Source: Bugula neritina
Taxonomy: Eukaryota > Bryozoa > Gymnolaemata > Cheilostomatida > Bugulidae
Direction: 5' to 3'
DNA: 64,000 bases
Assembly: GCA_964035545.1 (NCBI GenBank)
Contig: OZ037773.1
Span: forward strand, 8,768,751 to 8,832,750
The position numbers were made by a program, and so were the translations under genes. This document shows positions 7,872-63,999 of this stretch, piece by piece. Numbering within the stretch: the first letter of the stretch is position 1; every line of letters starts with the position of its first letter. The notes below the pieces were generated by a model. That model made no database searches, was not told the origin of the DNA, and saw only the letters and a program-made list of their open reading frames with translations.

Positions 7872-24569
<16,698 letters not shown>

Positions 24570-25289
24570 TCTAGCTTCCTGGTCTAACCTTTTGCAACAA
24601 AACAAATCAGGCAATTAGCGAATGCAGTGATAATAACATCACACTTATATTTGCCTGTGCTTTGCAGGTATTTAATTTGTCACATGAGTGTGTTAAGAGT
24701 GTATGGTCAACGCAAACATTAGTTGCCAAAACCAATACTCTACATGCATCTGAAGTGGTAATCCAAGAATGCATTGTGACAAGGAGTTGTGAAACACGAC
24801 CATTGATACACAGTTTCATAACACTTGCATTTTTAAAGTAAACATATTTTAATAGATTGAGCTAGAATCATATTTTACACAGTGGCAACTTAGTTCCAAA
24901 TTGCAATGCATCTGTATAACAACACGTTAGGTGTATAACATTTACTAAGACAGGCATTGAGGTTACTGCCAAGTGCTTTGGTAAAAGCAATACAGCTCAT
25001 ATTTACTTTGAAACAGTTATTTCACTAATGAAGCTTTAAAAACTACTAAATGTTTTCAATTACTTTAACTTTTTTGTTCAGTAAAACTGACTTCAAAAAA
25101 CTTTAATAAAAAGAGTTTAATTCTTACTTGAAGTTTTAGGTGATTGTGGTCCGTCTTGTTTTCTGCTGCTAATGAAATACAGGTCATGGAAATTTCTGGG
25201 GAAATGTTGACCAGTCTCTTTTGGATAAGACTACAGAAGATCAAGAGAAACACAGAAATGTTTAAAAGATACAATCACCACTTAATATA

Positions 25290-35696: not shown

Positions 35697-38536
35697 ATGA
35701 GTCATTGGAATGTTTTACTGTGTGTTCTATTAAGTGAGTATCACCAGGCTTGTATTAGACTTGTGTTGAGGTATAACTGAAATATTATAAATAATTTTAG
35801 TTTTGTCCAGTATTTTTTGCATTTTATATAAGTGAGTTGAATACAGAATTATTAATTTGTGAGAAAATATACACGGAAATAAAGCATTATTAATGGCTTT
35901 TTTGTATTAAATTCAATAATATGATGGCGTTATAAAGCTTGTGGTCATATATGTGAACAATTTGTACTCTGCAATATTTTTACTTTTTAGTTAGACAATC
36001 ACTTGTAAATTAAGAGTAAATTAAATATAATAATATAATAGTAAAATAAATTCTAATGACTTTGTAATGCATGCAGCCGGTATTTTTGCCTAGATACCTT
36101 AGTATTTATACAGAATTAAATATAATAACCTGATTATTACACCCTCATAACTACACTGCTTACTACACCCCTGTCACTCCTCCTAAATAGTATACTGCTT
36201 ACTACACTCCTGAAACTCCCCTTAACTACATTGTTTACTACACCCCTGTCACTCCCTCTAAACATACTGCTTACTACACTCCTGATACCGCTTGCAGTAT
36301 CGAGTGCAGCTGTACGAGCAGTGAAATGGGAGAACAGAGCTCACAATGCATTTGAAGCAGCGCAGTACAATGTTGCAACTAGACTTGACACTACCAAGAG
36401 AGCGGCTATCCTCAAACTGACCATAGGTGGCTGGTTGGTAAGTTTTAGCTCTCCCAAAGTTTATATGAACTAATAACTGAGTAGTTTTCATTCATGCTCA
36501 TCTTATTTTCCTCTAATTACTTTAATTCTTCTGTGCATGGGAGTTATCTGCTTTATGCTGGAATGCCTGAAAAACAACGTAATAATTATTGTTGATATTC
36601 AGTGCCTTATTACCTACAACAATTAGCTTTAGCAGGCAAACTAAAAATAGAAAGATATTCTAATTGAATTCAGTCTCATAAATTTTCAAAAGTGTTGGGA
36701 ATTTTAAGCCATTTGTAGAATATACAAATGTACATTATAAATGTAGAATATACAGGGAAGTTACCGTATTATTTTACTACTAGTTTACCACCAACTTTAG
36801 GTAAAAGCCAAATTACGTAATTTTAGTAGTAAACTTATTAATCCAAACCTCTCTGCCACCCTTTGAGCTGCAACATTTTAATAGAAAATTTTATTTTACA
36901 ATATTAAGCTATTATATAAACCATATGTGGTATGTTATACTACAATAGAATATCATATAATGCAATAATATATTAAGCTACAATGTCATTTTGCATTACA
37001 GTATTATGCTACACTGCAATAGTATGTTATATTACAATATTATTCGTATATAGCAATATAAAGCATAACAATATCATATTTCAGGAAAGTGTGTTGGACC
37101 CAAGGGTTCTAACTGACTTTGAGAAGTGTAAGCTTTCTAAATGTCCTTCTCACTCAGAAATCTACAAGGTAAGAAGTTATCTCCTCCTTCCCAGCATCCA
37201 TCTTATCCAAATTATCTCACCCAAACATTTGTATGGAATGTATAAATAAAATTCAATTATAATATAAAAAGTGCTTAGATTTGTCTAGTATAGCTACTAG
37301 AACAATTTATAGACACTTAGTATCGTATAATTTATAAAAAATATCTTCAGAAAAAAGTAAAAATTTTATCCTCACAATTATTCTCAATAAGACGATTGTC
37401 AAAAGTGTTTAAGAGAATATCACTGACTGAAATGATATATTTATAATTTGTATTTATTTTAAATTTTTTTCAAAAGATGTATTATAAAGAAATTCTGGAG
37501 ATTGAAATATTATTTGATACTGCATTTTCAGATTCCAGGACTGCTGCACACGGAGCACTTTTTCATCAGCGGCTGCCTTGACCTAGATGACGTGTTTGAT
37601 CCTCTGGACAGAGACTGGTTCCTGCTGCGTAACGAGCAGCTGATCTGTGACATGGAGGGAATCAAGTTCTTCTGCGACTCCGACAGCTCCCGCTTCACTA
37701 GTGACCCAAGTGGGGGCTTCTGCACCAGTAAGATGTCTTCACTGTTACTCCATGTTTAATAATGCATCAAAATTATACTCTCAAATAATATATGGAGAAA
37801 CTTAACTGTATTATTGAAAATTTGAGTAGTTTCCATAATATATGCCTTTCACGTAGTTGTTTATATTTTGTGCTACATTTATCTAAAAGTTGCTATAATA
37901 TTTGTAAACATTACTGAAAAGTATTTGTGCAAAACATAATTATTTTAATTTTGTATCATTTTCTACATTTTATATACTTTGTAAATATATGACAAAGGTA
38001 GCTCTACATATAAACATAGAATTTTTATATTATATGTAAAGTATAATAATGTTGCGAATTGTAATAGTTTGATATATCAGTTTGAAGTCGTTACCAAAAA
38101 CTCTGAATCATAAAAAATAAGCAGCGAATATAGTATTTTATATTTTATACAAAACTTTAGTCACATTTTTAACAATCTACTAACATTTCGTGCTCTTTAC
38201 AAAATTTTGAAATTTTTGATATGGTATAATTTATAAGCAGTTAAAAATAGTATATTAGTATAAAACAGAACATATATTAATTTACGTTAAAAGTTATAAT
38301 AATTCAAGGATAAGATATTACAATAGTGAATATGCTGGAATTATAATAATATTCTATAAACTTTCCCATTTTTGGCAGTGTTTATATTATTATTGTATAA
38401 TATATATAATTATAATGCATAAAATAGCATACATCTATTAAAATATTTTATTTTTTTTGAAGGTTCAAAAAAAGAAGTAGCTTGTTCATTGGCTAGAATG
38501 TATTCCTACTACGACTGTTACTATCACCTCTACTAA
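35697..38536 (+). CDS. Secreted cysteine-rich array protein 1 (unrecognised family)
   Basis: Five exons: 35697-35733, 36298-36437, 37085-37168, 37532-37727 and 38463-38536; intron phases 1, 0, 0, 1; 176 aa. A signal peptide (MSHWNVLLCVLLISSAAVRA) precedes a helical segment ending ILKLTIGGWL. Exon 3 has C-x4-C (CKLSKC). Exon 4 has GC-x23-C-x8-C-x15-C with the core DPLDRDWFLLRNEQLIC. Exon 5 has C-x10-C followed by a tyrosine-rich tail (YYHLY). Eight Cys are expected in the mature protein, compatible with four disulfides. It is the most diverged of the 8-Cys members and has the longest exon 2 (140 bp, against 107-125). A minisatellite abuts the exon 2 acceptor. The start is chosen because the ATG opens a signal peptide whose donor has the phase shared by all paralogues. 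I do not recognise the family, and the function is unknown. Confidence 0.87.
36155..36297 (+). repeat. 36-39-bp minisatellite at the intron 1 acceptor of array gene 1
   Basis: Four units anchored by ACTGCTTACTACAC-like strings at about 36155, 36194, 36230 and 36266, pyrimidine-rich (CCCCTGTCACTCCTCC). The last unit runs directly into the TTGCAG acceptor at 36297, so the repeat supplies the polypyrimidine tract. Confidence 0.85.
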
Positions 38537-38687
38537 AGACATGAGAAAAGAAATTGCTATATTTCTTACTTTAAATGTTTTAAAAATGGCTGTAAACAAG
38601 TGTGGAAATAATTGATAAATATACTTGTTTTTAATGTAATTTAATGCATTTGTAGTGAAACTAGTTTTTTTGTTCTTTGTTTAAGCC

Positions 38688-38693
38688 AATAAA
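38688..38693 (+). promoter_or_regulatory. Candidate polyadenylation signal, array gene 1
   Basis: AATAAA about 150 bases after the stop codon. Confidence 0.6.
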
Positions 38694-38932
38694 CATACAT
38701 CTAGTTCACACCTCGTATACTTAGTCTTTGTTCTTATGCTACTATAGCAACTTGCAGTATGAAACAAGTTTTTGTTAAAAAAGATCAATCAATTTTATTA
38801 CGCTAGTTACTAATTATTAGTTAAAAATTTTAAGCTGCTATAGTTAGTAAATTCAGTTAATAATTGTTAATTAGAAACTAGTTGAATTAACTTAAAATTC
38901 AAATGAAAGTTTCACTTAAGTTAATGTAAAAT

Positions 38933-39022
38933 ACTTACCCTCATGGGGATTCAAACCTCAGACCTCCAGTCTTGCAGTTGCTGTGCTAACGAATACACCA
39001 CAGGGGCGTCTGGAGTCCTAGC
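38933..39022 (-). repeat. tRNA-like sequence, probably a tRNA-derived SINE head
   Basis: Read on the minus strand, it has an A-box-like region (TGTGGTGTATTCGTTAGCAC) and a nearly perfect B box, GGTTTGAATCC, at tRNA spacing. The anticodon stem does not pair well, so I do not call a functional tRNA. It is distinct from the two SINE copies at 3.1 and 12.9 kb. Confidence 0.45.
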
Positions 39023-40228
39023 AACAGTAAATCATGCCAGTAACTTTAAGGTTTAAATTTTAAAATAATCATTTCTCAGTTGCCCATTCATAGTTATAAA
39101 ACACATTGCCTGATAAACTTAATCAATAAATAGACTGATGAATTAAAGTAGGGTACAATAGCTTTATAAATACAAAAATAAATGATAAACTGGCTATCTT
39201 CTATTGCCAAAGAGCTAAACTTGGGGCTGACAGGGGTATTTTTTACCCTCCCAATCTTTCTAGACTTGATCACAAGCTATTTGTAATTTTTGCTCTAATA
39301 GCATCTGGAACAACTCAACACATTAGAGGCAGCTCAAGTTCTCAAATTATAAATAAAAAAATATCATAATAATTTTTTGAGAAATTTCATGCCAAAACAA
39401 TTTGCATTAACATGTGAGAGACCTCTGTCTACTTTGAGATCTACAGGGTTGAATGAGCTCTAAAATTGTAGCTTGACTCAGTCAAAGAAAATACTTCTAT
39501 AGAAACTAAGAATTATTTATTAACTTAAGTGAAAGTTAACAACCTCAGCTCCGAATCTCATACAACCCATTGATCAGCCATGTTTTAGTTTGATATATGT
39601 GTATAGTTATCTTCTTACCAACTTTTTACCCTCACAGTTATAATAATACTATTTAGTTGTTGCATTTAAAGCAATGCATACAGTACGTACTAGCAAGTTT
39701 AACTTTATCCTCAGCTTTTAATTTAAAGCATGAAAAGCAACTGGCACTTTTTTATTACCTAGTTAGGAGTTGTAACATTTGTTGTTGATTCTTGACTTAC
39801 ATCTCAAAAACAGAAATAAATAATTTTATAGAAATAGCACTGGATAAATGCTATTACCTCTCATATAGTAGAAATTGCAAACCAAAACATTTGTTTGCCA
39901 GCAGACTATAAGTATATAAGTCTGGGCTGATGAACAGTCAAACTTATAAATATGACAGAATAGTATTACGGCGGCGTAGGATCAGATTAAATGCTATTCA
40001 AACCTCAATATTAAGTTGTTGTGACATTCATACATGGAAGCTTAAAGTTAGCAGCTAAATGACTTTGTTACCTGGAAACTAGCTATTATGTCCATAGATA
40101 GAATGTATTTATTTAGAGTATTAGCAGCTTTCCCTTGATCTGAATAACTTTACAAAGCCAGCCATAGCTTGTATTTAAACTGGTCACTTGAGTCTTGACT
40201 GGCTGAGAATACAGAAGCTGAAGAAACT

Positions 40229-43081
<2,853 letters not shown>

Positions 43082-44446
43082 CAAGTCTGAGAATCTGAAG
43101 GCAAAGAGCAACTATTGTTAGCACTTTCAGTACCAGAAACTCATAACTATATTGTTATATCTTATCAGAAAAGATGGTTGCAGAAAAATATGCTTACCTA
43201 CTTTGGAAGTTTGCTATTTACTTAACTTTGTGTTCATTATAAGCAGTGAAATTATTGTGTAAGCTGTAAAAATGTTAAAGTAAAGCATCGGCCTTATTAG
43301 TTGATTTACTTTACTTTAATCCCATTTTAGCCGTAATTTTTGTCTTACTTTATCAAGAAGTAATTAAGTTATTTACTTTAAAACACCTGCAAATCTTTGT
43401 AATAATAAAAATTGTAATAAAATGTGTACAAGAGCATCAGATGAATTTTTAGAAGAAAAACCAAAATAATAATAAAATATTTAATTGTTGCTTGTTGAAA
43501 AGGTTGATTGATAGATGCAATAACACATACAATTAACAGTAACAATTAACAGTGTGTTTCAGCAATATCTTCAACTAACTCTTAGTTTACTTTAAACTAT
43601 CAGACAAAAATATAATTTTAATTGAGACTAATTTCAAATCATCCTTCACACCCATTCTCTTCTCCCTTTTCAATCTACTTTACCAACGAATGAAGTTGGT
43701 AAAGTAATAGGCACTTCTCCAGATGTTAGCCATTAAATAATAACCTGCTCCAAGTTAAGAGCATTGGTAAACATTATTAAGTTTAAATAAGAAAATGTTT
43801 GTTTAATAATTCAAAAGTTATGTAAATTAAGAGCATTACATTCAGATATTGTGTAAGGAATAAAACTTCATGCAGTTTTCTCTACCTTATTACCCGTTGC
43901 TACTCTTTAGTTATGCCAGTTTATTTTAGCTATTTTTCTGTTTAACAAATGATAAGTAGCGGATATAACCAGATAGACCAAGATATTAAAATAAAAGGGA
44001 GGTTAATGAGGCTAAAATTGTACTTGCTTGGTTGGAGTACAATATTATGTAAATCTTTACTGGAATGAGCCAGGGACTAGTAAACCCAGTGTAACAGTAA
44101 AACCAGATTGCTATAAAAACATCTAGATAAAGCCCGTTAGAATGAGCATTGCAACTAATTGTGACAAAAGACAATAAAACAAGTGCATTTAGAGATAAAC
44201 AAATAGCATTCCACCTTATGCTAAACAACTTAGTGCATTGCTACCTAGGACGAGTGCATGTTGCATAACAATAAGTATTATTTACTATCAGAGGTCTTAG
44301 AACTCTCCCACATCTCAAGTAGTTACGTAATAAACCACGGAAGTCAGTGACACCTTCTACAAGAACTTCATTACTTACATAACAGCAGACTACAGGTACA
44401 GAACAGTTAAGAAAGTTGGTAAAAGAAACCAGGAGCTGATACAACT
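43082..44446. other. Intergenic region, array genes 2 to 3
   Basis: AT-rich; polyadenylation signals for gene 2 at 43404-43409 and 43416-43421. A TATAAAAA string at 44112 is 335 bases before the gene 3 start, too far to be confident. No other gene is seen. Confidence 0.55.
43404..43421 (+). promoter_or_regulatory. Candidate polyadenylation signals, array gene 2
   Basis: Two AATAAA hexamers (43404-43409 and 43416-43421), about 320 bases after the stop codon. Confidence 0.5.
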
Positions 44447-46104
44447 ATGAAGAAATCCATACTTCTGTTGGTGTGTTTGTTAGGTGAGACGTGATATAAA
44501 CTTTTGCTAGATACAGTAACTGTGGGGTAAACTAATTTGGTTAACTTAGACATCAAAATCTGAAATACAACTTTCATTTCCTATTTTTTTTTCAAATTAA
44601 ACCAAACCACATTAAATGCCTCTTTATTGAAAATAATTGTTGATGTGCAGATTTTGTTAATTATTTTTATGACTCAAGAGTTACTTCAAACTTGTATCTC
44701 AATCACAATGAAATTGTGCTAGATAAATCCAATAAGTTGAGAAAATGCACCTATTTTAATTTGTAATTTCAATGATTTAACATGCGCTCAAATTGTTGAT
44801 ATCATAATGATGCAAACAGTGTTTCTTCAAAAATATAATTTAAAACAAATTCAAGCCATAATTGTTTTACTTCTAGCTATTATTATTTCAGTTATATCAG
44901 GAAACAACTACGTAGAGGCAGAAGACTACAGTATGAAAGAATTGCTGCAACACGCTATAGATGCTGAAATTCTTAGATTGACCATAAATGGCTGGCTGGT
45001 AAGAACTACTAACAACTGTTGCTATTTATTATGATGTATACAACTTTTTTTTAGAATGATAGAACTCTGGGCTTTAGTTCAGTTGTATTTGATCTGATTT
45101 GTAAAGCTGCTAAGAAAAACAGAGTGCATTATGTTTGATCAACTCCAAGGTACTTATGGTTCTATAACTTCTGTAGGAGAATGTAAGAGACCCTCTCTTG
45201 CTATCCTCCATTGAACACTGTGAAGTGGAAATCTGCCCAGATAACAGTAAGCTTGCACAGGTAAATTCTAAGCAAACTAATTCTCTTTTTTCCTCTATCG
45301 CTCTCCTTTTCTCTTTTTCCCTATTTCTCTTTTTTTCTCTATCTCTCAAACTGTCTACATACTCTCTTTCAAAAATTCACATACAACACTCTCTTTCTCT
45401 TTCACTCTCGTTTAGAAATTCACCCATAACGCTATCTAGCTACTTGTTTCTTGTACACATAACACTCGTACACCCACTCTCTCTCTCACACATACACACA
45501 CTCTCTCTCTCACACATACACACACTCTCTCTCTCACACATACACACACTCACAACACTCACAACACTCACAACACTCACAACATCAAATATATATTTGC
45601 TGTTATAATTCTTAGGTGCCTGAAACACTCACCGATCTTCACTTCAGATTTGGGGGATGCTTAGAAGGAATGGACATACTATCTCCTTTAGACAGGAAGT
45701 GGCTTCTAAAAAGAAATGAAAGATTTATATGCAATTTGGGCGGCACCCACAAGTTTTGTGCCCCTGGAACATTCAAATTCTCAATGGACCCAAAGTCCAG
45801 GCCCTGCATGTGTCAGTACATAATTTCCTTCATAACTTTTATAAATACAGCTTATTTATATACATTACAGTCTCAAATATTACAAAACTTACATCAAAAA
45901 GTTTTGCAATCATTTCAATTCTATCTAAATTTAAAATTTATAAAATTTTAAAAGTTTATGAATAAATAGAGAAATATTATTGTGTTTTGTTTCCATAGTA
46001 ACTAATTTTGTTTATATGTTGTAGCTACGAAACAGCAAGTGGCGTGTGCCCTGTCTACAGCAGCAGGCTACTATAAGTGCTATTCTCAATACATCTACAA
46101 ATAA
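44447..46104 (+). CDS. Secreted cysteine-rich array protein 3 (unrecognised family)
   Basis: Five exons: 44447-44483, 44892-44998, 45177-45260, 45616-45811 and 46025-46104; phases 1, 0, 0, 1; 167 aa. A signal peptide (MKKSILLLVCLLVIS) leads to a VEAED segment and AIDAEILRLTINGWL. Cys layout matches gene 2: CEVEIC; GC-x23-C-x8-C-x15-C with PLDRKWLLKRNERFIC; C-x10-C; tail SQYIYK. For exon 2 I use the acceptor TTTCAG ending at 44891, because it aligns with gene 2. An upstream CTAG acceptor (ending about 44875) is also in phase and would add a few hydrophobic residues. The exon 4 donor reads GTCAGT; the PC-x-x-TKQQVAC junction then matches gene 2. Sister of gene 2. The function is unknown. Confidence 0.9.
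45473..45585 (+). repeat. CT/CA compound tandem repeat in intron 3 of array gene 3
   Basis: Three units of about 24 bp (CTCTCTCTCACACATACACA type) followed by several CACAACACT units. It is preceded by a long pyrimidine-rich stretch. It lies in the same intron that holds the (CA)n tract in gene 2. Confidence 0.88.
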
Positions 46105-48316
46105 CTAAAAGGCAAAGAAAACCCTTTCAAGTTACTCATATGTAGTGTTATGGAAACTTTAGAAAATATATGTTTGTATATGTGTAGCCTAGTTGACTTA
46201 TATAGTCATTTTTGGGCAGTACCTCATCTTTAATGTAATAAGTGAGTTGTTTATCAAAAATAAATAACTTTATTTTTGCCAAAGTTTCTTGTTTTTTGTA
46301 GCAATATAAAATGTAATAAATTGTCCAAAAAAACTAAGAAATTACTGTTATAAAAACATTGCAGTAATTGCACATAATATACTAAATTTGCAGTCTTCAA
46401 ACAGTATAAAAATAGAAAAAAAGATTTAAAAAACTCAACTTTGATTTATAAAGAAAGGCAAGTTTATTAACTTCTATCTTTATGAGTTTGCTTCAGGTGA
46501 TGTTGGATAGAAATATAGTAAAACACAATACTATAGTTTTTATCTTCTGCACCTCACACAAGGTCTTGTAACTTCTACAATAAACATTTGTATCTGAATT
46601 TCAACTTCTACTAGAAAAATAAATATTACAATATTTGTTTATTTTAAATTAGCTCTAAATAGAATAACTATGGGGTTATTTAGTGCGTTTCTAAATCTCT
46701 GCATGCAACGGCTTTGTTTGTAAATGCAACAATTTGAATTTAAAAGGAATTGAATTTAAACTGGTAGTTGAAAATAACTGTTCTTTGCTTTTGATTTATA
46801 AATAAATTACACGCTAATAAAGTAAATAACAGTTACCTGGCTACTTTGGCATATATAAAACAAGCTAGTTTAAACATGCTGCAAGTTTAAATAAATAAAG
46901 GATAGGCAAGTAAACAACTATAAGCTTCTGAAGATTAGATCCCAAAGGATAATAATGAAAACAAACTGGGTATAGGTACAGCTTTTAGCTGTATTACACG
47001 GTAAATATACCCCCCCCCCTTTATTCAAGTTTTAAATAATTTAAGGCTTTTCCTACTTTCAACAATACTAACCGCATTAGCTAGTACCTAGCAGTACATA
47101 GCTAAAATAAAGTGGACAAATGGCTCTTCAAGTGCATTGGTTTCATTCAGCTGCTTTAGGTCATCCTCATCTAATATTTCCAATACACCATTTTTCCATG
47201 AATTTTATTTTGATCTGAGAAATATAATGTAATAGTGTGATAGTTAGCTAGAAATGCATGAAGTTAGTTACTATAAGAAAGGTGCTTTTAATTTTGCTAT
47301 TAGAAATCCAAAATCTGAAGCTAACAAAAATTGGAATCCTTAAAGTTTAGAGACTGGATTTAAAATTGTCATAAATTGCATAATGTAGTAGCTTGCTGAT
47401 TTTATTCAAGTATTTAAAGAGCAAATTCAAACCAGCAAAACATTTTTACCAATATGAAATTTGTAATAGTAAGCATTTATTGATAATTTTACGAAGAATG
47501 GAAAATCATATTAAAAAGTTTACTGCTTAAAAAGGTATTTGTATAATATATTCCATCATATAACAAAATGCTACTAAAATTTTGAACCAGCTTTTTAAAT
47601 GCAGTTTTTTTATTTTACTTTATGGGGTTGTGCTGGGGTAATATGCATGCTGTAAAACCTCAATATGAGTTGTACTTGAAAAAGACAGAAAAAATTGTTT
47701 GTCAGCATAAGTTATGTTTTCTGACAAACAATAATTCAATGAAAAACTCAAGTCTACACAAATGTTATTTTTAAATGCACAATTTTTATTTTACTAAAAT
47801 TATATAAAACTCCCATTTCATAGAAAAATTTTAGTTAAATTTATCCAGTTTTCTGAACGACGAACTGATTTTTACAGCTTGTTATAAATAACAAAGGCAT
47901 TATATACTCATTGGTCTAAAATTTCATGCAGTGCAAACCCTGTAGCTTTTATGTAATTATATAATATGTTTACAGCTGTCCTACAGCTGACAAAGTAAAT
48001 GGCTTTAATTTTCTGAGGTACATTCTTAATAGGCGGTGGCTTAAAGAGTTTAAAGGAATCTACTTCAATTAATCTTGGTTTCAAAGTTTATTTTGGCAAA
48101 AGTTTGAAAATACTACTTAGTGCAGTTCTTAAAGGCTTAGAGGTATTTGGGGGCTACCAGCCATTATGAGGCTGATTATAACAGGCATGTTACTTAACTA
48201 GCTAGATGCCGATTACGTAATATGTTGGTTGGGCAAGCTAGAAATACCTTGAAGCTTTTAAAGTCATTGAGTGTTGAAGCTTGGACCACTCCACACGCAG
48301 AAGACAGCTGACAACC
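46105..48316. other. Intergenic region, array genes 3 to 4
   Basis: AT-rich; polyadenylation signal for gene 3 at 46259; a C homopolymer near 47010-47019. A TTTTAAAG string at 48257-48264 sits 60 bases before the gene 4 start codon, at the same spacing as the TATTTAAA of gene 2. No exon remnants are seen. Confidence 0.55.
46259..46264 (+). promoter_or_regulatory. Candidate polyadenylation signal, array gene 3
   Basis: AATAAA about 155 bases after the stop codon. Confidence 0.6.
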
Positions 48317-50261
48317 ATGAGACATCTCACCTTAGCAGCAGCAGCATTTGGTGAGATTGCATAATATTTTTATTTATTTTAGTACTTCAACATTCTAAAT
48401 TGCTGCTGCATTATTTTATATTCTCATTATATATTTTTTAAAACTGAAACATATTACAAACTCAAAACAAAATGTTTTTGATCAATTGCTATTTTGTAGT
48501 GCATTTGTTAATCTTGTTAAAAATAGTTATTTTTATGCATTTTATACCAAATCTAATGAAATTAAGCAAACTATTTTAATAATAATTTTCAATAAAAAAG
48601 GATTTATAGTTGTGAGCTATAGCAATAGCTATTCCTCTCACACTATTTTCACTTGAGCAAGGTTATACATCTTCGTTGACTCTACTTCTAGTACATAATT
48701 TCCAGCCATTTTATTTTATAGTGCTCGTGGCATGTATGTTGACCTTGACATGTGGGCAAGGTCACAAAAGAACTGACTTCCTGTATTTAGACAGAGTAAA
48801 TGCTCACACTGTCTCTGTGTTTTCTGTTGCCATGGGAGACTGGATGGTAAATATTCTATTCAGAAGTAATACAACTCCCAAGTCTTTAAGAGTAATGCAA
48901 ACTAGCTACAAATAGTCCCTTAGAAAGTAGACAACTATATATTACTATTACTATAAATTCATTAGTTTTACAGTTGCCATCAACCTCAAGTGGTAAATAC
49001 TAACAAATTTCTAAAGTGAATATATGGAGTGTATCTACTAAAGCTATTAGACATGTAAACTACAAAGTATAAATGAGTTATATGTAATAGATCGCTATTA
49101 GGCATGCAAACTGTAAATATCAAATGATGGTATACTTGTACTCATGCACTAATACCTACGTACTTCAGTACCAATACCATGAATTCTTGTATAATATTTA
49201 GTTGTATTTTCAGTCAGTTCAACATGACGTTATAACTAGAAATATCATTGGACGATGTCAGCTACAGTCCTGTACTTTTGTTGGAGCATTCAACAGTACC
49301 CAGGTAAAGACACCTCCACACTTACATTCATACAGTTACTGTCTCTCGTCCAATAATCTTTAAATAAAATATTATATTCATTTTGTTCTATATATTATAT
49401 TCATTTATTTATATGCAAATTGACAGCATTTATCTTATATTTTGCTATAAACCAACAATTTTAGTCTTTATATTTTAGTTATTTTAGATAATATCCTAAA
49501 GTTAATTCAATATGCCCAATGCCTGGTCAGATAAAAAGCACATCATTTTGTTATTAGCATGGTAACCGATTTGATATCTTCTGCAGATAACACTTAGCTA
49601 GAGAGTACTTTTCTAGGGATTGCTGTTACAGGTTGCAGAGAGGCTAAGAAATCACCACTACAAGTTTGTTAACTGTATTTTCCAATACGGCTTTCTGCAC
49701 CCAATTGACAGAGAGTGGTTCAAGAAGAGAAATGCTGATGTCATCTGTAAAATTGGAGGATACGACACATTCTGCAGGAACGGGCAGCCATATTTGAAGG
49801 GAAATCCTTACGGAGATGAGTGCCGAGGTAAATCATAGTTTCATTTTATCAATGAGCTTCTTAGTCAATTTCCCTCTGAAAGATATACAGAACCATAAAA
49901 AATAAAGGAGCATGGAGCAGAGATATTTTTTACGACACCTTGTAAACACTTTGAATGATCTTTTATTTTAAATAATTTAACAGAGTTCTAACTACCTATT
50001 ATAGCCAGTATTAAACTAAATTTCACAGATGTATTCATGTCTCGGTTATGCAATTAATCTATGCTCATACAAAGTGTGCTAAAGTATATTACAAGCGTTA
50101 TAAAGTAAAATAGTCTAGTTTATGAGGCTAGCAAAGGTGTTCCAATGAATAAAGTTATCTCAATTTTAGTTGGACGTACAGACTCGCTCTGCTCCTTTGC
50201 CAAGGTACAGACCTACTACGACTGCATGCATCAACACGCTCTTATACATGGCATTGTGTAA
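48317..50261 (+). CDS. Secreted cysteine-rich array protein 4 (unrecognised family)
   Basis: Five exons: 48317-48350, 48722-48846, 49214-49303, 49632-49827 and 50170-50261; phases 1, 0, 0, 1; 178 aa. A hydrophobic signal peptide (MRHLTLAAAAFVLVACMLTL) is followed by a segment ending VFSVAMGDWM, matching the W-L/W-M exon 2 ends of other members. Exon 3: CQLQSC. Exon 4: C-x23-C-x8-C-x15-C with HPIDREWFKKRNADVIC. Exon 5: C-x10-C (SF-x-KVQTYYD between the Cys) and a tail ending HGIV. Eight Cys lie in the shared positions. A ninth, CG just after the signal core, may be removed with the leader. One NST sequon ends exon 3. It is intermediate between genes 1-3 and 5-7: it keeps the DREWF core but has the 90-bp exon 3 of the later genes. 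The function is unknown. Confidence 0.88.
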
Positions 50262-50439
50262 ATCAGTATTTTATCTCTCAAGCCAAAGAGTCAAGTTGTC
50301 TCGCCAACATACCTAATGCGTTTTAGTGTCACTGATAATGTGATAAATTTGTGAAACTCAATTTCTCATTTAGCTTGTTTTGGAAATTCTTGCTGATAAA
50401 GCAATTGAAATAATCATTTGATTATAATTCATTTCAAAT

Positions 50440-50445
50440 AATAAA
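50440..50445 (+). promoter_or_regulatory. Candidate polyadenylation signal, array gene 4
   Basis: AATAAA about 180 bases after the stop codon. Confidence 0.6.
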
Positions 50446-53400: not shown

Positions 53401-55002
53401 TTGATTAGATAAGTTGATGGTTGAGAAGAAACACTGAGATATTTCTTTTAAATAATTTTAAAACAGCAAATTGAGTTTGTTGGTCAACAAATGCTGTCCA
53501 CCTCATTTTCATTACTGAGTGCTGCTAAATTTAAAAAAAGAAACTCCAAAAATAACAAAAAAACATTATTTGGTCTGAAAAGCTTTTAAAGCAAGCTAAA
53601 AGCTTTCAATTATTTTTCAAAACATTATTTTAAACCTAATAAAAATAAGGAATTGGCTAAAATACATATCATGTTCAGATTTAAATGATTTTACAGAACT
53701 AAACTATAACAAGAAAATTAAAATAATACTGCATGTATTAGGTTGTTTGATGCCTATATTGTTTTTTTCATTAAGTTTTCAGAGTTATAATTATTCTAAT
53801 AATATTTAAAGCTTTGTGTGGATAATTCCTAAATGCCTTTGCACCTAGTCATTAATTGTAAAGTTCATATTAAATAGATATGCATCATATGCATGGAAAT
53901 AACACAGAATTGTAATTACTACTAAATTTTAACTTTATCAACTCCAAGCCGCGGCTACGTAAGCTAAAAGTTAAAACTAAAAGAAAAATCAGAAGTAGGC
54001 TTGTCTTTCAAATTATTTAACTTCAAATTAATGTTGAATAATTTAACAACTGTGAACAAATCTGGTTATAAAAATATGATGCAGACTTAAAGTTTTGCCA
54101 TGGAATTATTTATCGACAATTCTTATATAATTACAATAAAATTTCATGTAGTTTTATGACGTTGTTTGATGTGTAAAAATCACTTTTAGATTTCTAAATT
54201 ATTTTATGAACAAACTTCAAATGTTATTAAATAATATTGTCTGAAATTGCAGAAAAAGAAATTCTTTATAAGCTTTAAATTATCCTTAATACAAAGATTA
54301 AAATGCTAGGTGAAAATATACTGGTTGTTGAATTAGCATGCATTTTGCTATCACAATAGCTTGGGACAACACTTATTATTGCATAATGTCCTATACTATG
54401 TCATAAATGAAAGAGCAATTTCTTCATCAAATGAGTTGGAACGATTCCTGGGTCATACATCACTGAACTTGTCAAAGCAGCTTGTTTGGATTATATAGTG
54501 ATGAATTAGCTCCAGCTCTCTTAACATGGTTGTACATTCACGTGGAACAAACAGTACGTCAGGCTGGGATTTCTTCTTCTATTTAATAACCTCACACGTA
54601 ATGGACATTTGAGAAGTGACATCATCAGTCTATATCTCTATCTAACAAGTACTCGAGCTGAGTTAGGGCTGAACTGATCCGAATTATGAGCTTAAAGCAG
54701 CACTAAAATCTCCAAAATTTCTCTACAACTCTGACCAAGTTTGGAATTTCAATGGAATTCACAGTAGAAGAGTATTAAATTTAATTGTCAGTTCTGAGTC
54801 ATTAGTGATTGAAAGATACTTTTGACCTGTTGGCGCAGCCCTAAATTTCTCAGCAACTTAGATTTGCAAATTAGTATTTAGAAATATAACTGTATATGTG
54901 TATTTATAAATTTAATAAAGTTTCGTTTTAGAGCAGAATTGTTACCTCATACAGATTATGCACCCAAAAATATACATACGTCAAAAGTTTGTAAAAATTT
55001 CC

Positions 55003-55010
55003 TATAAAAG
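55003..55010 (+). promoter_or_regulatory. TATA box, array gene 5
   Basis: TATAAAAG, 69 bases upstream of the start codon, predicting a short 5' UTR of about 35-40 bases. Confidence 0.55.
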
Positions 55011-55071
55011 AAAATTATGAAGATATACTATTTATTGTACATTGAGCTATCTTTCTATCATAAGTATGATA

Positions 55072-57411
55072 ATGAAGAATTCAGTGAACATGTCTTGGTG
55101 TCCCATTTTAGCAATAGGTAAGTGGTTTAAACATTTTTATTCAGAGTTTGAAAACACCAATAGCTTGTTTTTAAAAAAATACTATAATGTATTATTAAAG
55201 GCCTATGCTATATATATTATAATACTCTATGTTATACATCTGAATGCTTTAAAAATTTATTGAAATGGCTCATATATATATATATATATATATATAATAT
55301 AATATAATATAATATAATATAATATAATATAATAGCAGTATTGATGACATTCATTCTACCCTCAACTGCTGCCGACAGCACTCTAAGAACTTTCCTATCT
55401 CAGAATCCTACTTCGTATCGGAGTTCGTTGGTACTATTCGTATATTTGGACAGCTGGTTTGTAAGTACCACATTATGTAACATAATTAAGGATACTAGAT
55501 TATATAGTGATTTCCACTCATTGCAAACAACATTATATATTATTACATTATTATATTATAGTATTACTCTAATGCTTTTAATATAAATATTTCTAAAATT
55601 AAAAATTTTCATATTGAACTTACAATAAGTATACATTGTACCCTAGCGAGCCTAATATACTATTGCAAAAATAAGCAATTTCGTTTTTTGACATCAACCA
55701 GCTATTTTTTGCATCAAGTTTTCCCAATCTATATAAGTTAACTTAAAGGTGAGAAGTTTAAAGGTACTTACACTTTATTCTACAAATAATATAATAAGTC
55801 AAAATAAAATTACATAATACAACTTTTTCATCGCAGCCTCAATGTTACAACTTGCATATTTTTAATTACCATTAAAACACTTTAATTTATCATGTTACAA
55901 TAAAATTAGAAATACTTTATTAAAACGATTTTTTATCAAGTGTTTTTAAATTTATTTAGAGTAATAAAATTGCATTTATATCAACATGTCAATGCATGAC
56001 AGATTTCAATACAACTTAATTGTTATAAGACGTGCATGCATAAAAACAACATTTTAATTTTCTTCTATGCTACTATGTCTATATAGCTGACTATATTGTG
56101 CCTTACACATGACAACATTTCTACAACAGCACAATAATTCAAGAACCGCTTCTCTATTTTGTAGTCCAGCAGCAACCAAATGGGTTTGTCTATCATCACC
56201 GAGCAATGTCAAGTCAACAATTGCTCTTCCTTCCTTCACTCAACAAAATCTGAGGTCAGTTATTGATTGAAAAATAGTTTTTACAAAATCCGAAGAGTCT
56301 GTAGTCTTGTTTCATAGTTAGTAATTTAACTGGGACTAAATTATCTATACTATACATTGTTTGACTACGTAACTTGTAGCCATAACCTACTGCAGTAAGT
56401 AGAAAAATACTATTTGACGATCAAAGATAAAATATTTCAACTGTTACCAGGCGGTAAAAGATTTAACTAAATCCTAGTAACTAAACACATCTGGCATTTC
56501 TATTCCAGGAATTTCCTACATTGCTGAAATAGATATGCCGTCGGATTAAACCTGCATTCCCATCTGTTAGCTTCTCTATAAACTATAAATCAATATTAGG
56601 TAGGATTAGGGCATTTCAACCGGATATTTGTATATAATAAGATCTCCGTTAAATTTCACATTAATAATTTACTAGCTACTTTTTGTTATAATATAGGTCT
56701 TATGTGTATACTTCTTAATGCAGGCAGCTGAATCCTTAGCCTTTCTCCATCGTCAGTTCTCCTGCTGTCTTGGGCCACACAACATACTAAGTTCCCGAAA
56801 CAGAAACGACTTCTTAGAACTAAATGTAGACATGATTTGTACTCTGGGAGGATTTGCAAACTATTGTGAAGATGGAGTGTTGCGACTCAAAGACAATCCT
56901 GACTGTTCAACCTGTGCAGGTAAAATCTCCCCTTGATCCAATTCCTTGATAAGCGCATGCAATTTTGAATAAATATATATCTCCTATAATTTACATAAAA
57001 TATTATAAAACTGTAAAAAATGGTGTTTCTTGATACTAATTTGAAACTATTTTTAATACAACTTCTCTTTCAAATACTTAAGCTATAGATACAGTCTTTA
57101 CTTGAAGCAAAATTGTAATTAAATTGACATTTATAGCTGCTGCTTTAACAAAAGACTGATGTTGCAAGTTGCAATGCTAATAAAGTTTGGGCCCCTCCTT
57201 TAAATAAAAGATGCTAAGTTATGACTCATCCATGGTGAATAGTTATTTACTATGTTAACTATCTTTTTGAAAAACAGGTAGAAATAAAAATTTTAAAAGA
57301 ATTTAAATGAATTTGCGATATATCTGTTATTTTGTAGCCTCTCTAGGAACAAGCTTGTGCGTGCTGGCTAGAACTATGAGTTACTATAACTGTATAATCA
57401 CTGAGTTATAA
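55072..57411 (+). CDS. Secreted cysteine-rich array protein 5, 10-Cys type
   Basis: Five exons: 55072-55117, 55339-55460, 56165-56254, 56724-56919 and 57338-57411; phases 1, 0, 0, 1; 175 aa. The signal peptide ends near PSTAADS. Exon 2 ends YLDSWF. Exon 3: CQVNNC. Exon 4 opens its Cys series with a CC doublet, then x23-C-x8-C, and ends NPDCSTC, so it has two more Cys than genes 1-4. Exon 5: C-x10-C (CVLARTMSYYNC). Ten mature Cys suggest five disulfides. The exon 2 acceptor is NAGNAG (TAGCAG at 55333-55338), so alternative use would add one Ala, and an AT microsatellite stands where a polypyrimidine tract is expected. A downstream in-frame ATG at 55090 could also start the leader. The function is unknown. 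Confidence 0.87.
55271..55335 (+). repeat. (AT)n/(AATAT)n microsatellite abutting a splice acceptor
   Basis: (AT)n from about 55271 to 55296 passes into (AATAT)n, ending at the exon 2 acceptor of array gene 5. Confidence 0.92.
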
Positions 57412-58786
57412 TAGCTGTGGCTTCAATATTATTGTATTGGAGCTATTTAGGAAGACTTTAGGCTATTTCTTACTTTTATATTTCACGTTTTACAAAAAAA
57501 TTATTATTGTGAACATTATTTTATACTTTTTATATTTTCAAGTTATTTGATCTGCTAATAAAGAGAAGATAACTGCTAAATTAAAAATGTGTTGGTAACA
57601 AGAATAGCTTGCTATGCCTTTTAATAATTAACAGGTTTATTCTTTTTATCTTACCCTAAGTTATCTACACAACACAACATGATATTATAATGCAGCTTTT
57701 ACAATTAAATTTAGAGTTGTCAGTCTCTGAATATATTCAGACAGTTGACAATTCTTTGGTTGAACTACAAGTAAAGATAATCTTACTTGGCACTTTTGCA
57801 TGAGGCCATAGATTAAATGCTGGTTTTGATGAGGATTATAGACTATTAAATCGTACTACCCTGGTACGCACTAACGCTTATACACTGACATTATTTTTTT
57901 ACAGTGATGGCTCCACTTATACAACAATTTAATGTTAAATTCTAAACTAAATTAGAGCTGCATTCAGTCATAGTACTAAAAATATCTAAGGGGGGGGGAA
58001 AGCACAGATTGTAACCGGCTGCACATCATTACTTATAAGATTTTTAAGAAATGTTTCAAGTCACTTGATAATAAAATATAATTGAAAGGTGAGAATTATC
58101 CTATCGGCAAAATAGACTGAGAACAACCTTTCCGAAAACAACATTATTTGAGAAAAGCATTATTAGAAGCATTTAAAAACTTAAAAAGTTGTTGAAAATC
58201 TTACGTGAATATATTATTTCGATGATAGTTCTTAGATTATCATGTTCAAACTATATTGGCAAATCTAGAGCTGTAGAAAAAATAGCTAAAATATCTGTTG
58301 AAATAACAAAAAGCTTAGCAAATGCTTAATGAAAAAACGTTTTTGACTACTAATCTTTTTAATACAGTATAATAAGTTACGTTTTACTTGCTTAGCCAGA
58401 AGGTTATGCAACTTATTAAAACAATGCAAATTGGCTAATCAATGCAAGACTATGAGTGACAGCGTGCACTATTGCTAAAAACTTAAATAACTAAATTAAC
58501 TAAAACATTAAACAAGCTTTAATTTTTGAACCAATTTAAAGCAAATAAATTAAAAAGTTTTGTAAAATAGAATAAGCTTTTGACAAAAGGAAATGCATAT
58601 AGTACGTAACGTGTATTTACCATCACTGGTGCAGCCCTAACAATTACAGCATATTCATTATTTACACCTATGATTAGTAGAGAGGTGTTGCTGAAGATGT
58701 AGCATCGCAGGTAAATCATTTGACAAGCAAAGAGTGGTCAATTTAGCTAGCCTTTGCTAAGAGCTCCAATACATTGACTCTTGACA
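57412..58786. other. Intergenic region, array genes 5 to 6
   Basis: AT-rich; polyadenylation signal for gene 5 at 57557-57562; a G homopolymer near 57990. No promoter motif could be chosen for gene 6. Confidence 0.55.
57557..57562 (+). promoter_or_regulatory. Candidate polyadenylation signal, array gene 5
   Basis: AATAAA about 146 bases after the stop codon. Confidence 0.55.
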
Positions 58787-61122
58787 ATGAAATCCTTTAC
58801 AAAGATTTGCTTTCTTGGTACAATAGCCATGGGTAAGTTTTACCAATAGTGTGACATAAATATATCAACCAAATTATATAATCTGTTAATTCATTTAATG
58901 TATTGTTGTATTCTATTTGACTATGGTTGAACATATTTTACTAAAAACCTAATACGGAGTTAGGTCTATCAATGCTATCATGTGAAATACAATTATATTG
59001 CTTAACGTAATGTATATAAATGTATATATATTGTTCATCAATGTTTTTTACCCTTAATATATGTAATTATTTAAAGTCATTTCTCTGCCATTTAAGCCAA
59101 TATACATTATGAATTAAAACTTTATGTCAACAGAAACTAGTGTAATATGAAGGTAGTATTTTACCTTTGCAGGGCTACTACTAGGACTGTGTGTGCAGTC
59201 CGCCAGTGCTAAGTCTATGACCAGTCTGCTTAATAAAGAAGGTAAACTTATAGGCAAGGCACTTACACTGATAGAATATCTGGAAGAGTTCTTTGTAAGT
59301 TTTATTTCATACAAATAATAAAAGTTAGAAATGATTACATTTTTACTATAAGAGAGATATATATATAGAATCTTTTTAATACTGTCTGAAAAGTTCATAA
59401 TGATGAAGCATAGGATTTCCAATATTTACAGCGATGATGGGCAGTTGAATACTGTTTATAGGAAGGCAGTAGCTGAATTTTCAGAAAGCTAGCCTTATAA
59501 TATATACATATCAGAATTCAGCCCTCCTTGCACTAAATATGAGCAATTAAATTGCTTTAAGTAATTTGAAATAAGCTTTGACTTTGAAAATTAAACTCAA
59601 ATTTCCCCATGCACATTTAATATAAAGATAAACTAACATATATAATTTTTTAAACAAAATTAGGCAGAACTAAAAGCCGAAATCAGTTTTTTATTTTTAT
59701 TCTATTTAGAAACATTTCCAAATGTGCATTTATTGTTTATACATTTTCTATAAGGCAGAGATAACTCCAGATGTAGATTAGTGCACAATATAGTATGTTC
59801 TGTGCAGAGATAACTTTAAGCATGTAATAGTGCAGATTATCTTATGTATTGCAGAGTAGTCATAGAGAACCCAGAATGTCCCATCTCAATGATCAGTGTG
59901 GAAATGCAAACTGCTCTCACTTTCTTGAGTCAACTACTACTGAGGTATTTTTATATTATCTGTATCATATTGCTTGGCATTGCCTTACTTTCTTTCAGAC
60001 TTGAAATCAGAGTTTCTAACCAAAAAACTACTTCTTTATACATTGCAAAAATAATATGCTATAGTTCTTATGATCACTTGATTTTCATATCCTATGCACG
60101 TTTTTTTCTTATAGCCAGTTTGAAAACAAAGGGTTACATTCAAGCATATTTTGCTGTGGTCTCAAAAGTTTCCTTTACATTTTGCTTTGATCAGTAAAAT
60201 AGTTGATAATCATTCTTTTTGAGTCATTTAGAAATTTTTATCGATTGGAGCTTTTTAATATTTCCAATGATAGAGCTTAATTTAAAGATATATTTTCGTT
60301 CCACGATCTCTTTATGACATGTCTAGTCTTGATCTATCTTCTTCTCAATTAGTTGCCTATTCAAAGCGTTGTTGGAAAATTCATACTTATTTATCTTAGC
60401 AGTTTTGTCTGACACTAAATAGCAGATTATTATAGCTGTGATCATGTGTTATGCAAGTTGCAATACCCTGCTAATTAGGGGTATCCCTCCCAATGTAATT
60501 ACCTATCATTGTATATAATAGCTAGTTTATAATAAGCACTTGAAATATGTTATCAAATTGTTTACAACAGGGTCTAAATTTAAATGACCCCTTGTGTAAT
60601 TGCTGAGATGCAATAATAGCAAGAATACATGGATAATACTTACAGGCAGCCAGAGTTCTGTCAACAATATACCTGCAGACCTACTGCTGTGTCCAAACAC
60701 TGGGTAATCTCATTAGACACCACATGAAGGTGCCCTACTTAGGCCGCGCTCAAACTCTGATATGTGAAATAGGGGTTGGCTCTGGAATCTGTAACGAGAG
60801 CAAACACATCAAGGCAACACCTGATTGTTCTCTGTGCACAGGTACATTGTTTAATATTGTTTGCATAAAAACTTAAACACGTATTACATAATAAAATGCA
60901 GGAATATATGATTTTTTATAAAATATTTTAAAAAATTCAACTCGAAATGATTAAATAATGTTACCATGATATCAGCTTCAATCTCAAGAGACTGACTGTT
61001 TATTATACACAAAATGTCTACAGAGATACAGTCTAAAATATCTTTATTTTACAGAGACCTTTGATTCTAACGTGTGTTTGCTGGCTATGATGAAGAGCTA
61101 TTTGACCTGTATTGCTGGTTAA
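58787..61122 (+). CDS. Secreted cysteine-rich array protein 6, 10-Cys type
   Basis: Five exons: 58787-58832, 59173-59294, 59855-59944, 60646-60841 and 61055-61122; phases 1, 0, 0, 1; 173 aa. The signal peptide ends near VQSASAKS. Exon 2 encodes a helical LLNKEGKLIGKALTLIEYL and ends EFF, losing the Trp seen in earlier members. Exon 3: CGNANC followed by SHFLESTTTE, close to gene 5. Exon 4: CC doublet, about 24 residues, then C-x8-C and TPDCSLC. Exon 5: C-x10-C (CLLAMMKSYLTC), with only three residues after the last Cys. Exons 1, 2, 3 and 4 have exactly the same lengths as in gene 5 (46, 122, 90, 196 bp). The DR-x-WF core of genes 1-4 is absent. The function is unknown. Confidence 0.87.
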
Positions 61123-61368
61123 CAGATAAAAGCCATGTTTATCTAACAGGATGCAATGCAAAAACCATGCAGAATTTTTATTGAATATGTTGTTCCTTGC
61201 CTTTTTAAATTACTTGTTGAAAAGTACTATTGTTATTTTGAATGTTTGCCTATTGTTTCTCTATAGCATAGCATGACAATTTGGTATTGGTTTTATTGAT
61301 TTGAAAAATGATAGTTATTTTATTAAATTTGTTTTCTTATTCAGTAATATAAAATTATCAATATTTTC

Positions 61369-61374
61369 AATAAA
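61369..61374 (+). promoter_or_regulatory. Candidate polyadenylation signal, array gene 6
   Basis: AATAAA about 247 bases after the stop codon. Confidence 0.5.
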
Positions 61375-62080
61375 TTGGCTTCTCAAGACAAGCAATTATA
61401 ATGCTTAATAATAAATAATTTTACTATATAAGCTACAGTGAGCATTTGTTACAATTTGAAAGTAAAATGCTAGTAAAAATAAAACAATGAAGCAATTAAA
61501 TAAATTTGATGTTAATCTCATGTGCCCTTAATACATTATTTCAACTGTTTTATTCGCTTAGTTAAAAGATTGCCAAAAAGCAATGTTATTTTATTTATCA
61601 TTCGAGTGTGCATTACCACAACAATTATAAAGTTGTCTCTCTTCAGAAACCTTATCATATTATTATTCTGGAATTATGTTTGATTGAGAATTGAAAGACA
61701 GTTGTATTTTCTAGTTAAAATGAAAAATTACAATGAATTACCATATAGAACAAACAGCATAGAAAAAACAGCTATGTAAATAAAAAATAGAAGTATTATA
61801 AAAAAACTGATATACCCAATAAATGCATTGAGTATACTATTTTTCTAATACTTCAAACCTAATATCTTATACCTTACAGTTAAATAACTACAAAAAAAGC
61901 AACTATAAAATTATGACAAAACTTAAAAAACACAACTTTTCTAACACACGGAGTTATAAAATAGCTTACACATGTTTTACAATTTGTAGCTTTTTTAACT
62001 AACTTTCTATGGACACAGCTCTATTCTTCCAAGCATGTGCCAAATATTTGAATCCATCATATCTGAATGTTCCACATCTC

Positions 62081-62088
62081 TATAAAAG
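62081..62088 (+). promoter_or_regulatory. TATA box, array gene 7
   Basis: TATAAAAG, 157 bases upstream of the start codon, implying a 5' UTR of about 125 bases. Confidence 0.5.
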
Positions 62089-62237
62089 CTGCTATATATA
62101 TTACACATGCTCTTATTTATTAATACATAGTAGGAGTAGCATCAGCGATATAAAATAAATCTTCTAAAAGAAGACTTTTCTTAACTGCCAACTATTTCTA
62201 CAGTAAAAATTCAAATTTAACATCAAGATATTGCAAA

Positions 62238-63999
62238 ATGAAGAAAATAAGTGAAAGATTCCAGTGTTTAGCTTTGATAGTGGGTAAGAGCTTAAATATC
62301 GTCATTACAATTTTTTTTTGTTACAAAACAAACAAACAAGCAAAGCAAACAAACAACTGTAGAGATGAAATATAAAAGTATTTAATTAACCCTATACCTC
62401 AGAATTTCAGCTGTGGTATAGCCTATAGAACTTAATGCTGTTTAGCTATATTCAACCTTGTATATTCTTCAGCTATATAACTTCTAAACAACTTCTACTC
62501 AGTGCAAATCAGTAATTAAATAAACTGATTTATTGCTTGTAGCTTTGTTGATGCTCAACCAGTATGCTGACGCTGCCTCTGATTCATTAGAAGATCGTCT
62601 AGTAGACAACTCCCAAATAAGCAGTTACATTCTAAACGCATACAACTTTTCAAACCAATACCTGGTGAGTCACTCGGGTAAATTTTCTCTAAAATGTTGG
62701 ATGAAGCGTAGCCAACTTTATCAGCATGATACTGCTTTTAGCAAAATCTGTACAAAAGCATCAAAGATGAAAAACTTTCCATAGTGTGGGTGTATGTTTC
62801 AAAGCGCTAACATTTTGACTGCAGCAAACATTCTAGATTATTTCATATTTATTTATTTAGGTAGTTTAATTTATTTCATGGTTGCAGGATTTATACAAGG
62901 ACAAAATCGAAAGGTTTAGCATCAAAGACCTATGCCGTCTGAAAAACACTGATTGTCAGCGCATATTTAAAGCACCTAAAGATCTGGTAACCTTATAAAA
63001 AGTTTTTAAAAAAAACTTCAGCTTAAAAATATTGCATATCCAAAATTTATATCTATAGAAACTATTTTGAATTGTTCTAGAATTCCTTAAGATAAATTGC
63101 AATTTCTATAATATAGTAAAATTTTGTTCAGTGTACACTATATAAATCGTGCAAATGTTTTTTCAAATCTTCACTTGTGTTTATTATTAGCAGCTCATTA
63201 TTTACTTTCAAGCTGATGAAAATCTTGGCAGACATTCATCGTGAGGTCTCTTGTTGTATGCTCCAGCAATCTACTCACACAGATAATACGAGTCATGCAG
63301 ATAATACGAGCCATGCAGATATTGCGATGGAATTTCTACAAAACAATGAGCAGACAATCTGCGAGGTTGCCCCAGAGATATGCTCTCTGGATATGACAAT
63401 CAAAAGCCTCCCTAAATGCCAGGAGCCCTGTCCAGGTGAGATAGTTATACGTGTAGTACATCTCAGTATACAATTATTGAGGCGTGTGGTGCATTGCATA
63501 GAGTGTAATAGACAAGTAGCATAGGATAATGTACGTATTTCATAATCCAGAATTAAGTTTGTCGAGATATACATCAGTATAAATATTATAAGCTAAGTTA
63601 AAAATATAAATTATATCAATTTTAAAAAATTATATGTTTTGCTGAAAGTTTAAGTCTTTTAAAGCACTGCTTATTTAGTTTGCCGTTGACACTTGAATTG
63701 CTTCAAATTGCATAATTATTATGATCCTTCTGAAATGTGTAGCCTAAATATTAGATGGCCAAGCTTTGAAAAAAATACAACACGTTCTGAAAATTTATTA
63801 AATTTTAGTTGTGCTAAAGCTTTGTGTGATTTGTTTAGCATTGAGACAAGCTCTATTCTAAGTTAACTTGATATTACATGAACATTATTGTTTTTTATAA
63901 ATTTTTTATTTCTTTGCAGTTCCTGTAAGCATAACCCTCTGCTCCCTGGCCAGAACTGCTAGTTACCATGAATGTATGCTGTCTAGGCAAGAAAAATAA
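62238..63999 (+). CDS. Secreted cysteine-rich array protein 7, 10-Cys type
   Basis: Five exons: 62238-62283, 62543-62664, 62888-62986, 63213-63435 and 63920-63999; phases 1, 0, 0, 1; 189 aa, the longest member. The signal peptide ends near YADAAS. Exon 3 has a widened spacing, C-x6-C (CRLKNTDC). Exon 4 keeps the CC doublet, but its loop before the next Cys is enlarged to about 34 residues by an in-frame 18-bp tandem repeat (HTDNTS/HADNTS/HADIAM). The next pair is shortened to C-x6-C, and the exon ends LPKCQEPC. Exon 5: C-x10-C (CSLARTASYHEC), then a tail MLSRQEK. Exon 4 is 223 bp, 27 more than the fixed 196 bp of all other members. Exons 1 and 2 match genes 5 and 6 in length. The stop codon is one base from the window edge, so downstream array members cannot be assessed. 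The function is unknown. Confidence 0.85.
63276..63329 (+). repeat. In-frame 18-bp tandem repeat in exon 4 of array gene 7
   Basis: Three units (63276, 63294, 63312) of CAYRCAGATAATACGAGY type, the third degenerate. Confidence 0.88.

Follow-up and report, generated by a model that had tools for sequence, protein, structure and literature searches.

Nine tandem genes for small secreted cysteine-rich proteins in Bugula neritina and their possible likeness to long-chain helical cytokines

Gene models and protein features

The window, the whole 64,000-nucleotide stretch of Bugula neritina DNA analysed here (C9:8768751-8832750), carries at 35697..63999 seven genes (g1 to g7) of a nine-gene tandem array predicted to encode small secreted proteins. 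The array is real and has no named family. Gene coordinates are positions in the window unless prefixed C9, and all nine genes lie on the plus strand. Genes g1 to g7 were rebuilt by splice sites, with GT-AG introns and an open frame in each. Gene g1 (35697..38536, 176 aa) was composed of exons 35697-35733, 36298-36437, 37085-37168, 37532-37727 and 38463-38536, g2 (40229..43081, 168 aa) of 40229-40268, 40733-40839, 41019-41102, 42571-42766 and 43002-43081, and g3 (44447..46104, 167 aa) of 44447-44483, 44892-44998, 45177-45260, 45616-45811 and 46025-46104. These were followed by g4 (48317..50261, 178 aa; exons 48317-48350, 48722-48846, 49214-49303, 49632-49827 and 50170-50261), g5 (55066..57411, 177 aa; exons 55066-55117, 55339-55460, 56165-56254, 56724-56919 and 57338-57411), g6 (58787..61122, 173 aa; exons 58787-58832, 59173-59294, 59855-59944, 60646-60841 and 61055-61122) and g7 (62238..63999, 189 aa; exons 62238-62283, 62543-62664, 62888-62986, 63213-63435 and 63920-63999). 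To the right of the window the array continued with g8 (C9:8833800-8836528) and then g9 (C9:8837325-8839145), modelled likewise and spaced at 1.1 and 0.8 kb. All nine genes had five exons with intron phases 1,0,0,1, and exon 4 was 196 bp long in six of the seven window genes, g1 among them, and 223 bp in g7, where the 3' splice site at 63213 keeps the frame. The first-pass annotation of this DNA had described seven tandem genes of this kind; its exon number, phases and recurrent 196-bp exon were confirmed by the rebuilt models and the tandem layout stood, while the count rose to nine with g8 and g9, found where it had suggested looking for further copies.

Scanning the 74 kb past g9 with a seven-member profile gave nothing below E 0.1, and searches of the whole 215.8-Mb B. 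neritina genome with g1, g2, g5, g7, g9 and two database proteins (P0001 and P0002, described below) revealed no intact relative outside the array. Extra matches were obtained with g9 only, at C9:8675573-8676136 and 8686352-8686781 on the minus strand, about 150-162 kb to its left. These two 440-600-bp segments have 86.6-87.0% DNA identity to g9 around exon 2 only, with the frame broken, and were perhaps carried by a mobile element. Within intron 3 of g2, a 1.4-kb (AC)n run at 41107-42549 is the probable cause of the marked fall in GC skew over 40001-44000.

In all nine proteins the strongest 11-residue hydrophobic stretch began at residues 4-14 (mean hydropathy 2.66-3.92), the strongest such stretch beyond residue 35 reaching only 0.99-2.04. 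By this measure, which is simple hydropathy and not SignalP, each has the N-terminal signal peptide expected of long-chain class I cytokines, in agreement with the secretion proposed earlier. The mature domain was about 145-165 residues, longer in g8. Eight cysteines were common to all nine proteins, spaced C-x4/6-C-x22/24-C-x22-34-C-x6/8-C-x14-16-C-x8-C-x10-C, which upholds the view of strong divergence around fixed cysteines; two further cysteines co-occurred in all five of g5-g9 and in none of g1-g4. In the FastTree phylogeny g1-g4 formed one group (support 0.985), with g2 and g3 closest, and g5 grouped with g6 (0.841), while the placement of g7-g9 was weak. For g2 and g3, nonsynonymous divergence (dN) was 0.20 and synonymous divergence (dS) 0.81 (dN/dS 0.25), which indicates that the youngest pair at least is under purifying selection. 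As dS was saturated or not computable for all other pairs, the duplications are mostly old.

Draft counterparts and sequence searches

Seven-row and eleven-row profiles searched against 5.8 billion proteins matched only P0001 (EB796_004036) and P0002 (EB796_004037), two consecutively numbered hypothetical proteins of the B. neritina draft, listed with no function and no Pfam domain; this search needs shared five-residue words and did not cover other bryozoan genomes, so that absence elsewhere is not shown. The draft was made from colonies from Virginia that genotyping assigned to type S, and its gene models come from AUGUSTUS, run with hints from the transcriptome (PMC7576161). The best genome match of P0001 was g6, from which it differed at 27 of 173 residues over the whole length, and that of P0002 was g4 (10 of 160 residues different). 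Gene g5, which lies between them, had no draft protein among the profile matches. The last 18 residues of g4 exon 4 (49632-49827) are missing from P0002, and this early end reflects a mistake in the annotation, a different splice form or a donor site that varies between alleles. P0001 has Phe at residue 147, where g6 and all of g5-g9 carry one of the extra cysteines, and keeps the other.

Divergence of this size in g6 raised hyperpolymorphism or allorecognition as a candidate, which was not supported: a neighbouring non-family open reading frame (ORF; L026:2166-3176) diverged likewise, at 35 of 331 residues from P0003, and g4 at 10 of 160 from P0002. This baseline is an imperfect one, as the origin of P0003 in B. 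neritina or a close relative is a presumption. The high protein divergence from other B. neritina data points to distinct cryptic lineages or to a very high level of diversity.

The earlier statement that the family bears no recognised name held up, as the Pfam and PDB profile searches gave no credible match and the protein set only the two hypothetical proteins; the confident profile hit to a named family that would have told against it did not turn up. The Pfam matches Sar8_2 (0.014), GBD_Y3 (0.028), Tetraspanin (0.044), Moricin (0.12) and HSR (0.16) each involved one of 11 proteins and were attributed to chance, as were eL40 (0.19, 0.28) and SidC (0.78) in the PDB profile searches. Phage records searched by tblastn with P0001 gave no match, and in the literature searched on bryozoan secreted tandem families no such array was named.

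Predicted fold and exon layout

The model of P0001, of moderate confidence and the single model behind the fold assignment, was a four-helix bundle of up-up-down-down topology, with two long crossovers (AB and CD) and a short B-C turn. Among the first 41 match rows for this model, 40 were cytokines, and its matches were almost all long-chain cytokines. The exon ends of g6 (residues 15.3, 56, 86 and 151.3) placed helix A in exon 2, the A-B crossover in exon 3, helices B and C with the C-D crossover in exon 4, and helix D in exon 5. Insertions and deletions among the nine proteins spared helices B and D, end residues aside; an 11-residue insert in g7 (exon 4) and a 1-residue gap in g9 fell near the start of predicted helix C, and predicted helix A contained a gap of four residues in g1-g4 and one of a single residue in g4. 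On the model, the co-occurring cysteines of g5-g9 map to where helix B ends and immediately ahead of helix D, and an up-up-down-down bundle would bring this pair to the same end.

The genes for EPO and growth hormone have five exons with intron phases 1,0,0,0, exon 3 encoding the AB loop, exon 4 helices B and C, and exon 5 the CD loop and helix D; IL-6 and G-CSF genes have five coding exons with the same phases. Three of the four Bugula phases (1,0,0) agree with this layout and the last differs, being phase 1 just before helix D. The likeness is a lead, literature searches having provided no source for the vertebrate side. Intron phases do vary among helical cytokines, since the four introns of fish type I interferon genes are all phase 0 (PMC4929537). 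Vertebrate long-chain class I cytokines (IL-6, G-CSF, CNTF, LIF, EPO, growth hormone and prolactin) resemble the Bugula family in secretion, in the modelled bundle, in having five exons, and in a short-range cysteine pair in the AB region, but differ from it in sequence, which gave no match, in having a few conserved cysteines rather than 8-10, and in their hosts, the Bugula proteins coming from a lophotrochozoan in which a receptor search gave no match.

Foldseek E-values for the P0001 model were non-significant. The model of P0002, made from the same rows, had a predicted local distance difference test score (pLDDT) of 57.2 and no up-up-down-down bundle, and no cytokine was present among its 50 listed VIA rows; in its Foldseek list a single chain of a leptin-receptor complex appeared, ranked 15th at a probability of 0.10. 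This independent check failed to confirm the P0001 result, although P0002, the only other family member in the databases, is a poor test of the fold, most of the predicted C-D crossover being missing from it. Hydrophobic moments compared with shuffles gave little support, as only six of 36 helix windows (A-D in nine proteins) fell below 0.05, namely A in g6, g8 and g9, B in g7, and C and D in g8. Pfam searches with 7 and then 11 proteins (E up to 10) and PDB profile searches with the family found no cytokine, leaving it with no recognisable cytokine sequence profile. In BFVD no match was better than E 0.69; homologues of IL-10 from viruses, ranked 6th, 8th and 9th, were not significant, and Bov2.b3, at rank 2, has no function stated there. 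We consider a four-helix cytokine-type fold about as likely as not.

Possible roles and neighbouring features

Our working explanation is that the proteins consist of a signal peptide and a mature domain that most likely folds as a bundle of four helices, braced by disulfides and connected as in long-chain helical cytokines, running from helix A through a long crossover to helix B, by a short turn to helix C, and through a second long crossover to helix D. Released from cells, they would act as extracellular ligands of surface receptors, and the signal would probably feed the JAK-STAT pathway encoded by the B. neritina genome; tandem duplication with divergence around fixed cysteines could then have yielded a set of ligands that differ in specificity. 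Two STAT loci (C4:3.714 Mb and C5:11.198 Mb) and a JAK-like gene (C1 near 14.548 Mb), with FERM_F2 and a same-strand tyrosine-kinase-like domain, were found in the genome; the piece taken as the SH2 domain of the latter gave no credible match. Receptor family PF09067 had no genome match, with sub-cut-off signals in two prokaryote controls, and PF09240 gave no signal anywhere, hence that search was uninformative. The gene models, the array, the cysteine scaffold, the exon layout, purifying selection on g2 and g3, and the JAK-like and STAT genes are established from sequence; we infer receptor binding, JAK-STAT output and biological role only indirectly, and a JAK-STAT ligand function is less probable than the fold. 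Taken whole, fold and signalling together, the explanation is tentative and falls somewhat short of an even chance. The proteins are said here to work like a helical cytokine and are not filed in the IL-6, growth-hormone or Unpaired families; because no cytokine sequence profile was recognised, family membership is not claimed. The earlier annotation had considered the role undecided from the sequence. It was right that sequence alone gives no family, but the protein layout is not wholly undecided, as the fold model and gene layout point with moderate strength to a known kind, that of the long-chain helical cytokines.

Alternatively, these may be helical proteins specific to bryozoans, secreted and rich in disulfides, that take no part in signalling, such as defence effectors, small-molecule carriers, brood or larval-coat proteins or symbiont-related factors, their cytokine likeness reflecting only a common four-helix arrangement. 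Such an explanation, which we likewise hold at a little under even, accommodates the lack of a family match by sequence, the finding of homologues in B. neritina only, the tandem expansion with strong divergence, the non-significant Foldseek values and the absence of cytokines from the P0002 rows; it fits less well with a P0001 model that matched almost exclusively long-chain cytokines rather than mixed helical bundles, and with a gene layout suited to that fold. An odorant- or pheromone-binding-like carrier, in which a cage of helices laced by disulfides would hold a hydrophobic ligand, was suggested by the weak Foldseek list of P0002, where Ppsp15, a salivary protein of an insect, took ranks 1-2 and pheromone-binding proteins also appeared, but these had probabilities of 0.07-0.12 on a low-scoring model. 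Insect odorant-binding proteins have a six-cysteine pattern with C-x3-C, unlike the spacing in all nine Bugula proteins, and we consider a carrier of this type quite improbable. Misjoined exons or decaying copies could be suspected from the g7 exon 4 splice site that breaks the frame, in place of which another was chosen, and from the two relics of g9 exon 2; yet phases, exon order and cysteine frame are alike in nine copies, g2 and g3 are under purifying selection, and the transcriptome-hinted P0001 tracks g6 over its full length, as P0002 does g4 bar the 18 residues, so that an artefact of gene modelling is very improbable.

A bolder form of the helical-cytokine explanation would have nine IL-6/EPO-like ligands signal to JAK-STAT by way of a gp130/Domeless-like receptor. 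They would derive from a bilaterian ancestral cytokine gene whose five-exon layout is still visible, and would be the first lophotrochozoan family of helical-cytokine ligands, a class that, according to recent surveys, most invertebrates lack; we consider this unlikely. To our knowledge, IL-6-type messengers are not known from the bryozoans' branch of animals, and the likeness of one predicted structure to these vertebrate messengers is not yet secure. A family of helical ligands secreted by a bryozoan would allow tests of how cytokine signalling arose in animals other than insects and vertebrates, and would also show why profile searches fail, with only fold and exon layout left. Even without the cytokine interpretation, a well-defined family of nine secreted proteins with a fixed cysteine scaffold is described in a bryozoan noted both as a fouling organism and for its symbiosis.

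Pfam holds a model of insect Unpaired (Upd), which gave no match in the Pfam-A scans of 7 and 11 proteins; compared with Drosophila Upd, the Bugula proteins are shorter and cysteine-rich. Upd1-3 are named as invertebrate IL-6-like JAK-STAT ligands (PMC13203501, PMC5385356, PMC8226699), Upd2 homologues are reported from Drosophila species only (PMC5385356), and the up-up-down-down fold with long loops is described (PMC7378365). One survey located no IL6 superfamily member in invertebrates; it mentions IL6-like proteins reported from Drosophila (Upd3) and from the sea star Asterias forbesi, the latter below its BLASTp threshold (PMC8226699). Literature searched on helical cytokines and receptors in molluscs and other invertebrates named no lophotrochozoan helical cytokine.

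Other features surround the array. To the right of the window lay a second tandem family, with members at L027:6276-6938 and L028:571-1404 and more ORFs to about C9:8.908 Mb. It consisted of repeated ORFs of about 220-330 residues, of the 'SDIPLCVLVTSRTTTLLK...' type, two of which were scanned with no Pfam match; ORFs of another type were interspersed, and the one scanned had weak beta-propeller-like matches. At the left of the window, ORFs 7875-11110, 24351-24614 and 820-1212, all on the minus strand, have the look of a homeobox gene of Otx type and a coiled coil of tropomyosin type. By eye, near-identical inverted ORFs at 16718-16969 (plus strand) and 19362-19613 (minus strand) flank a transposase-like ORF (18546-18875, plus strand), resembling a DNA transposon that has long inverted ends.

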